Assembly: GCA_012520795.1 (NCBI GenBank)
Contig: JAAYNP010000086.1
Coordinates: 1-64,000, forward strand
DNA from: Bacillota bacterium
GTDB taxonomy: Bacteria; Bacillota; Limnochordia; Darwinibacteriales; DTU012
Direction: 5' to 3'
Length of the DNA: 64,000 nucleotides
Shown in pieces: positions 3,325 through 36,689 of this stretch; position 1 is the first letter of the stretch, and each line of letters starts with the position of its first letter. A program made the translations under genes and the position numbers. Under the pieces are notes generated by a model. It saw only the letters and a program-made list of their open reading frames with translations, was not told the DNA's origin and did not search any database.

Positions 3325-3648
3325 AGAAAAAGCCCCGTTCCCTTGTAGGAACGAGGCTTCTGCTCGCGGTACCATCCTTCTTGGTTCACATAATTGAACC
3401 CCCTCAGGGCAGAATTTGTTTCACCACCAGCATAGCACCTTCGGTTCTGGTGATGAGACAAAACGGCATTCACGATAACGGGTGAAACCGGAAAGGCTTG
3501 CTTTATATCACCTTCGGCTTCCAGGTGGGTTGATCAAAAAAGTTACTGCCGGGCTCTCACCATCCCCGGCTCGCTAAGAATAACTGCCTTTTAATCGGGC
3601 CTGTTCATCGCCTTTACAACACTCAATTTCTTTTCTGCTGTTATTGTT
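3325..3648 (-). promoter_or_regulatory. T-box leader, CCC (Pro) specifier, upstream of proBAC
   Basis: AGGATGGTACCGCGAG (rc 3363..3378), terminator AGCCTCGTTCC..GGAACGGGGCTTTTTC (rc 3325..3358), GGTGAGAGCCCGG distal motif, CCC followed by A then CCUG pairing with CAGG (specifier rc 3527..3529). Confidence 0.9.
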
Positions 3649-32661: not shown

Positions 32662-34533
32662 TCAACTCCTGCTGTATTCCAAGTGGGCTTGGAGATGCCG
32701 GCGGACGGCGGCGGCAATTTTCGCCGGTGTCAGGCCGTAAATCTCATGCAGTTCCCCAATCGTACCCTGGGGAACAAACTGATCCGGATAACCGAAGGTG
32801 ATCACTCGTTTTCGGCCTGACGCAGCATAGAATTTTGCCACCCAACTGCCAAAGCCTCCCACAACCACATTGTCTTCCAGCGTAAACACCAGATCGGTAC
32901 CCTTGGTCAGGTGATCCAGGGCCTTTTCGGACAGTGGCTTCAACAAACGCATGTTCACCACCCTGCAGGCGATATCCGGCTGCAGTAGAGCGGCTGCTTC
33001 CACCGCCGCATGCGCCAGGGTACCCACAGCCAGGATCACACAGTCTTCTCCTTCGGCCAAAAGCTCGCTGCCGATCATTCTGGCAGGATCAAAACTCAGG
33101 CTCGGATCCATCTTAGTCTCACTCTTCGGGTAACGGATCGCCACTGGGTGCTCCTGCTGCAAAGCCCATTTCAGCATGGCTTCCAGTTCTGCACCATCTT
33201 TCGGAGCCAGTATAATCAGGTTTGGGATATGGCTCAAGTAGCTCAAATCAAATATGCCATGATGGGTGGGCCCATCCTCACCAACAACTCCACTGCGGTC
33301 GATTGCAATCACGACCGGCAAATCCTGAAGGCAGATATCATGGAGAATCTGGTCATAGCCTCTCTGCAAAAATGTTGAATAAATGGCTGCCACCGGACGC
33401 ATCCCCTGAACTGCCAACCCTGCCGCGAAAGTCAGGGCATGCTGTTCAGCAATCCCTACATCAAAGAACCGCTCCGGAAAAGCCCTGGAAAATTCTGTCA
33501 ATCCGGTACCATCGGGCATTGCCGCAGTGATTGCCACAATTCTAGGTTCAGTCTTGGCCAGTTTGACCAGAGCTGTCCCAAACGCATTGCTGAAACTGAC
33601 AGCTCGTTCATACCCCTGTTCCGGCTCTGCACTGCCGAAATTGGGGCCCAAACCGTGGTACTGGATAGGGTTCTCTTCGGCTGGAGTGAAACCCTTGCCT
33701 TTCTGTGTAATGGCATGGATCAAGACCGGCCCGCCCCGTCTGATCCCATCCTGCAGCGCCCGCTGCAGCTGTCTGATGTTGTGGCCGTCAAAAGGGCCAA
33801 AGTAGGCAAAGCCCAATTCTTCAAACAGCTGGCCCGGCAGCAGGCTCTTAACTGCATCTTTCAACGATGAACCCAAGCGGCTGGCGGGGCCTCCAATCGC
33901 CGGGATCCTCCTGATAAAACTCTCCAACTCGGACCTGGCCTTGTGCAAAGTTGGATCAAGGCGGAGCCTGTTCAAGTAGTTGCTCATGGCCCCGACATTT
34001 TTGGCGATGGACATGGCGTTGTCGTTCAAGACTACTACCAAATCGACACCCAGCTGGCCGGCGTGATTCAGTGCCTCAAAAGCCATTCCTCCTGTGAGAG
34101 CTCCGTCCCCGATAACGGCCACCACCTTGAAGCTTTCTTGGTTCAGATCACGGGCAATGGCAATGCCAAGAGCTGCTGAAATTGAAGTTGAACTGTGTCC
34201 GGCGCGAAATATGTCGTGCGGGCTTTCTTCCGGGACCGGAAAGCCGGAAATGCCGCCTAACTGCCGCAAAGTACCAAAATTGTGGTATCTGTTGGTCAGC
34301 AATTTATGGGGATAGCATTGATGCCCCACATCCCAGATGATCTTGTCCTCAGGGCTGTTGAACACTGAGTGTAGAGCAATGGTCAGTTCCACCACACCTA
34401 GATTGGCACCCAAATGCCCACCTGTATGTGTTACCGTAGTAATGATCTTGTCGCGGATTTCCTGTGCCAGGGCAGTCAATTGCTGATAGTCTAATTTGTG
34501 TAAATCTTGCGGAGATTGAATTGACTCCAACAA
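32662..34533 (-). CDS. dxs: 1-deoxy-D-xylulose-5-phosphate synthase
   Basis: GHLGANLGVVELTIALHSVF; VIGDGALTGGMAFEALNHAG; AEQHALTFAAGLA. Confidence 0.97.
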   Translation of the reverse strand: MLESIQSPQDLHKLDYQQLTALAQEIRDKIITTVTHTGGHLGANLGVVELTIALHSVFNSPEDKIIWDVGHQCYPHKLLTNRYHNFGTLRQLGGISGFPVPEESPHDIFRAGHSSTSISAALGIAIARDLNQESFKVVAVIGDGALTGGMAFEALNHAGQLGVDLVVVLNDNAMSIAKNVGAMSNYLNRLRLDPTLHKARSELESFIRRIPAIGGPASRLGSSLKDAVKSLLPGQLFEELGFAYFGPFDGHNIRQLQRALQDGIRRGGPVLIHAITQKGKGFTPAEENPIQYHGLGPNFGSAEPEQGYERAVSFSNAFGTALVKLAKTEPRIVAITAAMPDGTGLTEFSRAFPERFFDVGIAEQHALTFAAGLAVQGMRPVAAIYSTFLQRGYDQILHDICLQDLPVVIAIDRSGVVGEDGPTHHGIFDLSYLSHIPNLIILAPKDGAELEAMLKWALQQEHPVAIRYPKSETKMDPSLSFDPARMIGSELLAEGEDCVILAVGTLAHAAVEAAALLQPDIACRVVNMRLLKPLSEKALDHLTKGTDLVFTLEDNVVVGGFGSWVAKFYAASGRKRVITFGYPDQFVPQGTIGELHEIYGLTPAKIAAAVRRHLQAHLEYSRS

Positions 34534-34555: not shown

Positions 34556-35122
34556 TTATTTGCGGTTCTTAGCTTTGTCTGTTTCGATTATTCTTAAACC
34601 CACTCTTTCCAGTGCATATAATACTCTTCCTGCCGCCTGCAAGATATCAGTTGATCGGTTGATGGCAAAGCTTTTGGCATAAGCCTTCCCACCAACAGTA
34701 ACGGCAGTGACAAACCCAATCAATAAGGTGTTGGCAATGCTTTCCCTAATCCCTGGGTAGTTGAGGGCAAAACGGAACACAATTGCAGCGCCAATCGCCC
34801 CACTGATCGTGCCGGCAATATCACCAACCACATCATTGCAAAAAGACGCGACTCGATCAGCGCTGCGCACCAACCAAATGCTGTGTTTGGCTCCCGCGAC
34901 CTTGTCAGTAGCCATGGCATGGAACGGGGCTTCTTCTCCTGAAGCAGCCGCAGTACCGATAATGTCAAAGACAATCCCTAACAGAACAATAAAAAAAAGC
35001 AGTATCAAGCTGATGGCAAGAGGGGAAAACTCTAGGACAGCATTACTGCTGAAGTTAATCAAAACAGAGATTAAAAAAGTAGTCACACCAGTAATCAAAC
35101 TGCGTTTTAGGTGTTTTTTCAT
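34556..35122 (-). CDS. oapA: OLE-associated membrane protein A (OapA)-like protein
   Basis: 188 aa, several TM segments, DVVGD (DxxxD) motif, DIIGTAAASGEEAPFHAMATDKVAGAK; lies directly downstream of the OLE-like RNA and upstream of dxs. Confidence 0.85.
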   Translation of the reverse strand: MKKHLKRSLITGVTTFLISVLINFSSNAVLEFSPLAISLILLFFIVLLGIVFDIIGTAAASGEEAPFHAMATDKVAGAKHSIWLVRSADRVASFCNDVVGDIAGTISGAIGAAIVFRFALNYPGIRESIANTLLIGFVTAVTVGGKAYAKSFAINRSTDILQAAGRVLYALERVGLRIIETDKAKNRK

Positions 35123-35152
35123 CTAAACCCTTTCCCGCGATATGTAATAATA

Positions 35153-35770
35153 AGTGAATGACAGCGGACTGAGTAAAGATTGTGGCTTAGGTCTAGCAGG
35201 TTTTCCCAAAGATCTTCCAGCTCGTCACCGAAGCCGGCGGTTTCCCCTTTCCGATCTTTTTGCCATGTCGCCAATGGCAAGGCTAGATTACCACTTAGTC
35301 CACACCGTAATCCTCAATCCACCTTCGTTTGCACGAAACAGTCTAGGAGTTTTCCTCGACACCAATTTGCCCATCTCTAGCCTCTTTTGCAGTACGGGTT
35401 TCAAGCTGTGGATACCTTGGCCTTTGGTACCCATGTTAACAACTGCTATCCCCCCAATACCGCTCAAGGCAGGCTACTCTATACACAGCACATGGTTCGA
35501 ATGGGCTATGTTAGCGTACCGAGTATAGGTTCACTCCTAAGCCGTAGAGGTACAGTCTCCCGTACCACCACGAACTTAGGTCTCCGTGATAAGAGGGACA
35601 AAGCCTACATGCCGTTGTAGATTGCCCTCTTATCTTAACCCCCAGCAGCAACCCCCGACTGGGCGTTGAAGGCCACCACCAGAGACTTCATCGATGTGCC
35701 CTTAAACGGATTTTTAGGCCCGTCTTCGAGATGAAATTGGTGACTAGAATACTGCGTCATTCACTCAGAT
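35153..35770 (-). ncRNA. ole: OLE (Ornate, Large, Extremophilic) RNA
   Basis: About 615-nt ORF-free gene between ispA and the OapA-like gene; terminal 10-bp helix AGTGAATGAC (rc 35756..35765) / GTCATTCACT (rc 35153..35162); own promoter; synteny ispA-OLE-oapA-dxs. Confidence 0.88.
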
Positions 35771-35778
35771 TCAATTAC

Positions 35779-35807
35779 ATTATAACAGATCTTCTGCCGA
35801 TCTTCAA
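35779..35807 (-). promoter_or_regulatory. Sigma-A type promoter of the OLE-like RNA
   Basis: TTGAAG (rc 35802..35807), 17-nt spacer, TATAAT (rc 35779..35784), starting a few nt after the ispA stop; predicted TSS near 35772. Confidence 0.75.
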
Positions 35808-35810
35808 TCT

Positions 35811-36689
35811 CTACGATTCCCGGTTTACAACATATTCAGCCAATTCAGCCAAAATATTCTGATTGGGCAGTCCATCTGCATAGCGTTTGCACTGTTCCAC
35901 GCATTTAACCGCCTGATTTTTGGCTTCTTCCAGCCCAAGCAGGGTCACATACGTGGATTTGCCTTTCCGGACATCGGCTCCCGTGACTTTGCCCAGCTTC
36001 GCTATGTCGCCGGCAACATCAAGAATATCATCTGTAATCTGAAATGCCAACCCTAGGTTTTCACCATATAAGGTAATTGCTGATAACTGTTGGTCATTGG
36101 CACCGCCAATTAAAGCTCCGCCCCTTAGTGCTGCCAAAAAAAGCTTGCCGGTCTTATGGCGGTGGATGTATTCCAGGGTCAGCTCATCGACTTCATGCCC
36201 TTCAGACTGAAGATCTACGGCCTGCCCTCCCACAAGCCCTTGAGAACCGCATGCAACCGCAACTTCCTGAATCAGACGGATCACCAGTCCACAATTGGGG
36301 CCCTTCATTCTGCTTAATGTTTCAAACGCTAGAGTCAAAAGGGCGTCGCCGGCCAGGATGGCAACTCCGTCGCCAAAGACCTTATGGTTCGCCAGTTTGC
36401 CGCGGCGGTAATCATCGTTATCCATGGCCGGCAGATCATCATGAACCAAAGAGTAGGCATGAATCATCTCAATAGCACAGGCATACTCCAATGCCTGGCT
36501 GTCCTCTTTGCCGACTGCGCGGCATGCTTCCATCGCTAAAATCGCCCGCAGCCGTTTACCTCCTCCCAGACATGAATAACGCATTGCCCTGTGAATAACA
36601 TCCGGTGGTACCGTAACATCGGGCAGCAGCTGAGAAAGCCGCTCTTCCACCAGCATTGCTTTTTCCTTCAGATATGCCTTGAGTTCCAT
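35811..36689 (-). CDS. ispA: Farnesyl/geranyl diphosphate synthase
   Basis: LVHDDLPAMDNDDYRRG and QITDDILDVAGD aspartate-rich motifs. Confidence 0.97.
   Translation of the reverse strand: MELKAYLKEKAMLVEERLSQLLPDVTVPPDVIHRAMRYSCLGGGKRLRAILAMEACRAVGKEDSQALEYACAIEMIHAYSLVHDDLPAMDNDDYRRGKLANHKVFGDGVAILAGDALLTLAFETLSRMKGPNCGLVIRLIQEVAVACGSQGLVGGQAVDLQSEGHEVDELTLEYIHRHKTGKLFLAALRGGALIGGANDQQLSAITLYGENLGLAFQITDDILDVAGDIAKLGKVTGADVRKGKSTYVTLLGLEEAKNQAVKCVEQCKRYADGLPNQNILAELAEYVVNRES

Follow-up and report, generated by a model that had tools for sequence, protein, structure and literature searches.

The question raised by this locus is what occupies the gap between the genes ispA and oapA on the minus strand of the analysed stretch of 64,000 nucleotides (below, the window), and whether it gives rise to an RNA of its own. 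The gap measures exactly 688 nt (35123–35810, with the ispA stop at 35811 and the oapA start at 35122), as stated in an earlier note on this DNA, which had proposed an OLE RNA gene at 35153–35807 and seen no coherent minus-strand ORF; the longest ORF on this strand comprises 59 aa. The search with the Rfam OLE covariance model, which that note had named as decisive for the identity of the RNA, gave a match to 35776–35142 (minus strand) spanning the full model (RF01071, positions 1–616) with 491.9 bits and an E-value of 1.6e-142, i.e. about ten times the gathering score of 50 bits. The interval 35142–35776 is a full-length OLE RNA and an ordinary member of this known class. Thus, the gene lies where the note had put it, but the limits were different, as the interval 35153–35807 takes in the promoter. 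A search of the genome determined the OLE copy number as one, with no second OLE. The only other Rfam matches above threshold in the whole window are two T-box leaders at 36–248 and 3344–3617 (minus strand), both above the Rfam gathering score. The RNA gene and its adjacent genes are:

35811–36689, minus strand: ispA (farnesyl diphosphate synthase), upstream neighbour; NCBIfam NF045485 above cut-off
35142–35776, minus strand: ole, the OLE RNA gene; full-length RF01071 match, predicted transcript start near 35772, fold z -8.5
34556–35122, minus strand: oapA, a 188-aa membrane protein and partner of OLE RNA; homologues in 112 of 150 genomes, CNNM-like fold matches
32662–34533, minus strand: dxs, downstream neighbour; NCBIfam TIGR00204 above cut-off

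Profile searches gave the gene order nusB, xseA, xseB, ispA, ole, oapA, dxs, FtsJ/S4-type methyltransferase, NAD kinase, argR, recN, spoIVB. The isoprenoid/nusB/recN-type neighbourhood of OLE RNA is hence present here, and the nusB/xse/ispA/dxs/recN surroundings that the earlier note had listed were recovered. In Bacillota, 2,822 OLE RNAs have been described; among the genomes searched, 54 of 61 relatives and 218 of 300 members of the phylum carry one.

In order to assess the helices by covariation, we aligned 151 distinct OLE RNAs that had been collected from whole genomes; their mean pairwise identity is 64%. The elements considered are:

35756–35765, minus strand: 5' strand of the closing helix P1, AGTGAATGAC; pairs with 35153–35162
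35153–35162, minus strand: 3' strand of the closing helix P1, GTCATTCACT; pairs with 35756–35765
35728–35742, minus strand: 5' strand of P3 and P3.1, 15 pairs; pairs with 35360–35377
35360–35377, minus strand: 3' strand of P3 and P3.1 with a 3-nt bulge at 35369–35371; supported by covariation and length in the 151 OLEs
35586–35637, minus strand: P6 hairpin, in the area of the bS21 site known from the literature; from the Rfam structure, named according to helix order
35419–35422, minus strand: GGCC palindrome in the P9 apical loop; predicted from the sequence as dimer loop

P1 consists of ten perfect pairs and measures 613 nt end to end, precisely as read from the two ends before (AGTGAATGAC/GTCATTCACT). 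Its proposed function as a closing helix is borne out by the family: among the 151 OLEs, 91.9% of the cells are canonical, as compared to 32–61% if the partner strand is slid by 1–4 nt, and GC, AT, TA and CG are exchanged at most pairs, which amounts to many compensatory changes. In the literature, this helix is the one called P1 (PMC12265935). For P3 (35742–35734/35368–35360) and P3.1 (35733–35728/35377–35372), canonical pairs over the 151 OLEs make up 83–97% at the outer four positions of P3 and 94–100% at the inner four of P3.1; the variable pairs are those beside the internal bulge. Despite this strong covariation, the structure line of RF01071 leaves the columns of P1, P3 and P3.1 unpaired; the model is therefore improvable at these three helices.

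For the P3/P3.1 stem, 12 bp have been given as typical and a crossing of the membrane has been proposed (PMC12265935). The stem has 15 pairs in the window, and the family mean is 14.3 (sd 1.2). This constancy fits a membrane-spanning stem but is no proof of it: P4, P5 and P6 are about as constant in length or more so, which makes stem length non-specific as a test of the model. In contrast to P4–P6, the lengths of P7 and P8 vary widely in the family. P6, in whose region the bS21 site is located (PMC12054373), has a length of 52 ± 0.6 nt in the 151 OLEs, and the GGCC of the P9 loop is the kissing loop of the OLE dimer, bridge B3 (PMC12286853). Folding of the whole RNA gave -244.9 kcal/mol versus -195.7 kcal/mol for shuffled sequences (z -8.5).

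These findings bear on two other readings of the gap. It contains a plus-strand ORF of 124 aa, the longest on this strand, and could in principle harbour a protein-coding gene; however, conservation follows the RNA helices with their compensatory changes and the covariance model covers the whole gap, so that we regard a coding function as extremely improbable. Similarly, we see hardly any chance that the window's OLE is a decayed or non-functional copy. Decay is known from two congeners described below, but nothing in the window points to it: the match to the model is complete, the P1, P3, P6 and P9 features as well as oapA are intact, and the RNA is 89.7% identical to that of G003, a genome of the same genus.

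Compared with the OLE RNAs RF01071 of Halalkalibacterium halodurans and Clostridium acetobutylicum, the common properties are the full-length match, P1, P3/P3.1, P4–P9, the GGCC of L9, an own promoter, the ole-oapA order by isoprenoid genes, and the genes for OapA, OapB, OapC and bS21. In contrast to the Rfam consensus, the P8 loop of the window's OLE is enlarged by 22 inserted nucleotides and the outer part of its P9 stem is shorter; both regions are length-variable in the family. The variant 1 and variant 2 OLEs of the TANB77 and RF39 clades belong to the same family, but their P7/P8 are short or absent, and in variant 1 the OapB site is frequently missing (PMC11332333). As the match of the window's OLE spans the whole model, it is of the full-length type. 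Three seemingly shortened OLEs were rejected as variants: the matches in G004 and G044 begin at base 1 of a contig, and the copy in G030 runs into a contig end. Nor is the OLE of G004 deleted at its 5' side, as the missing 5' part sits at the end of another contig.

The promoter, which the earlier note had read directly after the ispA stop, is found exactly there:

35779–35807, minus strand: ole promoter TTGAAG-N17-TATAAT; from sequence and scan; 73 of 136 OLE loci have a promoter at this position versus 2.9 expected

It consists of TTGAAG (35807–35802), a 17-nt spacer and TATAAT (35784–35779), with a TG preceding the -10 element. The pattern alone is near chance, as a scan of the stretch found 2 where 1.3 were expected. 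The evidence is its position: promoters agreeing in at least 10 of 12 bases occur at the corresponding place in the above 73 loci, the expectation of 2.9 being derived from shuffles, and their -10 element is mostly located 28–30 nt ahead of the conserved GCAGTA. Judged from the sequence, transcription would start near 35772 and yield an RNA of about 620–630 nt. A scan of the stretch found no terminator between ole and oapA; consequently read-through from the ispA operon is probable, and a free OLE RNA would require processing of the transcript, which has been described in H. halodurans (PMC11332333, PMC9723947). In that organism, OLE is a discrete RNA of about 630 nt with its own promoter plus operon transcription (PMC9723947), and it undergoes 3' processing (PMC9723947, PMC11332333).

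The same arrangement, with oapA following immediately in the same orientation and the scan revealing no terminator ahead of it, would also be expected of a structured cis-regulatory leader of an oapA-dxs mRNA from which no free RNA arises. We consider such a leader very unlikely, given the length of the RNA, the joining of both ends by P1, the discrete and 3'-processed RNA of H. halodurans, and two genomes in which OLE and oapA occur apart. One of these is G072, whose oapA (C73; L055, L088) has no OLE detected within 3 kb upstream, though the genome has an OLE; ole and oapA seem unlinked there.

The other genome is G006, which harbours two intact OLEs that are 86.8% identical. Each is the nearest relative of the other among those sampled, and they are thus probably the result of a duplication within this lineage and not of contamination. 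The first sits in the ispA-oapA-dxs locus. The second (L040:2855-3493, corresponding to G006:C52:8354-8992) has no oapA beside it; it possesses its own TATAAT, and its P1 differs in sequence but still pairs. On its 3' side follow an LPG_synthase_TM protein and a CNNM + CBS/CorC (MpfA-type) gene that is interrupted by a frameshift. A NiCo riboswitch (L040:3602-3680) and a cation-efflux gene are arranged divergently to this OLE.

That OLE precedes the gene of its membrane partner OapA, as had been claimed, is evident from oapA being the next gene and from the family: of the 69 named loci whose flanks were long enough, 68 have OLE immediately ahead of oapA in the same orientation. All of the 112 OapA-positive genomes (out of 150) are OLE-positive, and the OapA-negative ones listed are also without OLE, according to a comparison of the two tables by eye. 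Most OapA relatives in the phylum have an identity of 34–51%; within the genus it reaches 85%. Comparing the OapA sequence alone with Pfam, NCBIfam and PDB gave nothing useful; PF01595 was weakly matched by 11 of 22 OapA relatives. An AlphaFold2 model of moderate confidence (pLDDT 80) had its best PDB fold matches among CNNM Mg2+ transporters, with MtCorB on top (probability 1.00, E 0.014). The fold of OapA is therefore predicted to be CNNM-like, which is in line with the published relation between OapA and MpfA. The model resembles the CNNM transmembrane domains of the MpfA/CorC transporters, but OapA lacks the CBS and CorC_HlyC domains borne by the CNNM proteins of G001, G002 and G008. The genes of the other partners are also present in the genome. 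OapB is encoded between map and infA (L047:7502-7852) and matches PDB 7k9b, 'OLE-associated protein B', with an E-value of 3.8e-14; OapC/YbxF is encoded between rpoC and rpsL (L048:2465-2713) and matches YbxF, PDB 4lck, with an E-value of 4.8e-13; a bS21 gene exists as well. The sequence thus holds the parts for each published OLE contact, the contacts themselves being predicted.

Family membership, promoter, helices and all partner genes are established for this locus, and we are highly confident that it encodes a P1-closed RNA, made from its own promoter, that would dimerise, be anchored by OapA and form, with its partners, a stress-tolerance RNP. For binding, membrane location, dimer and phenotypes we rely on the H. 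halodurans work and the cryo-EM of clostridial OLE. By analogy, transcription of ole would start at its own promoter, probably supplemented by read-through from the ispA operon. The RNA would be closed by P1, and a dimer, as published (PMC12286853), would be formed through loops including the GGCC of P9. OapA from the next gene would bind the RNA and anchor it at the membrane, and OapB, OapC and bS21, whose genes lie in other parts of the genome, would join the RNP, OapC near the P5 kink turn (PMC9723947). According to the published function (PMC9723947, PMC11332333, PMC12054373, PMC12265935, PMC12286853), the RNP most likely aids survival under excess Mg2+, alcohol, cold or poor carbon sources, a stress role demonstrated only in H. 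halodurans, and OapA may act close to Mg2+ export.

The genus offers a natural comparison. Among four sampled congeners, G003 and G004 possess OLE and OapA, whereas no OLE was found in G001 and G002; a search of G001 found no OapA either. The matches of ispA and dxs are spaced by about 250 nt in G001 and 360 nt in G002 versus 1,280 nt in the window. The relevant loci are:

G001:C52:44757-45009 (L194): ole-oapA remnant between ispA and dxs
G002:C85:30460-30821 (L193): ole-oapA remnant between ispA and dxs
G001:C66 and C50, G002:C97 and C65 (L216, L220, L215, L218): genes of MpfA-type CNNM-CBS-CorC_HlyC proteins

In both gaps, ispA is immediately followed by the intact ole promoter, and a P6-like hairpin and fragments of oapA are still present. 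In G002, short bits of OLE from its 5' and 3' ends and from the GAGGAAAACTCC region have survived as well. As these short gaps hold only remnants, the sequences indicate that ole and oapA were lost together while ispA and dxs stayed adjacent. Seemingly defective ole genes in organisms without OapA have been mentioned earlier (PMC11332333). A further observation concerns G074, where the oapA match is in two fragments with a stop (C15:392037-392316) and the OLE match is weaker (E 5e-48); a decay of the pair may be in progress.

G001 and G002 each have two MpfA-type CNNM-CBS-CorC_HlyC proteins (PF01595), and no CNNM (PF01595) was found in the OLE-positive G000, G003 and G004. OapB and OapC are kept in nine of nine genomes tested. 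The congener genomes are draft assemblies, so that single absences are soft and weight is put on the pattern over five congeners. In the family the exchange is not absolute: CNNM is missing from the OLE-bearing genomes G005 and G007 but accompanies OLE in G006 and G008. An anticorrelation of OLE and MpfA has been published (PMC11332333).

One could go further and assume that OLE-OapA and MpfA-type CNNM exporters interchange in this genus and that, after the loss of OLE, the old promoter still makes a short RNA with only the P6-like, bS21-site hairpin, i.e. a reduced OLE without its membrane half. We regard this as doubtful. Promoter, P6-like hairpin and U-tract are alike in G001 and G002, whose four-fold sites are saturated (31–32% identical), and the remnant hairpin of G002 has a fold z of -5.8. 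However, nine other gaps between conserved genes from the same 40 kb, some of which may contain uncalled genes, all align better (z 15–54 versus 11.8); consequently a special conservation of the remnants is unsupported, and we rejected the idea that a reduced OLE is kept by selection as a small RNA. The U-tract that follows GGCCAGCTTTG belongs to an oapA fragment and is unconvincing as a terminator (fold z -0.8 and 0.06), and an Rfam search of both remnants gave no credible family. We treat the loss in the congeners and the second OLE of G006 as leads, with putative functions.

What the window adds is one more OLE RNA among several thousand, and its interest lies in the comparison. In a single genus, CNNM exporters are absent from three species with OLE, and two species that have lost ole and oapA possess two each, which reproduces at short distance the OLE/MpfA anticorrelation known from the literature (PMC11332333). 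This makes the genus a place to ask whether the task of OLE-OapA is the same as that of Mg2+ export.
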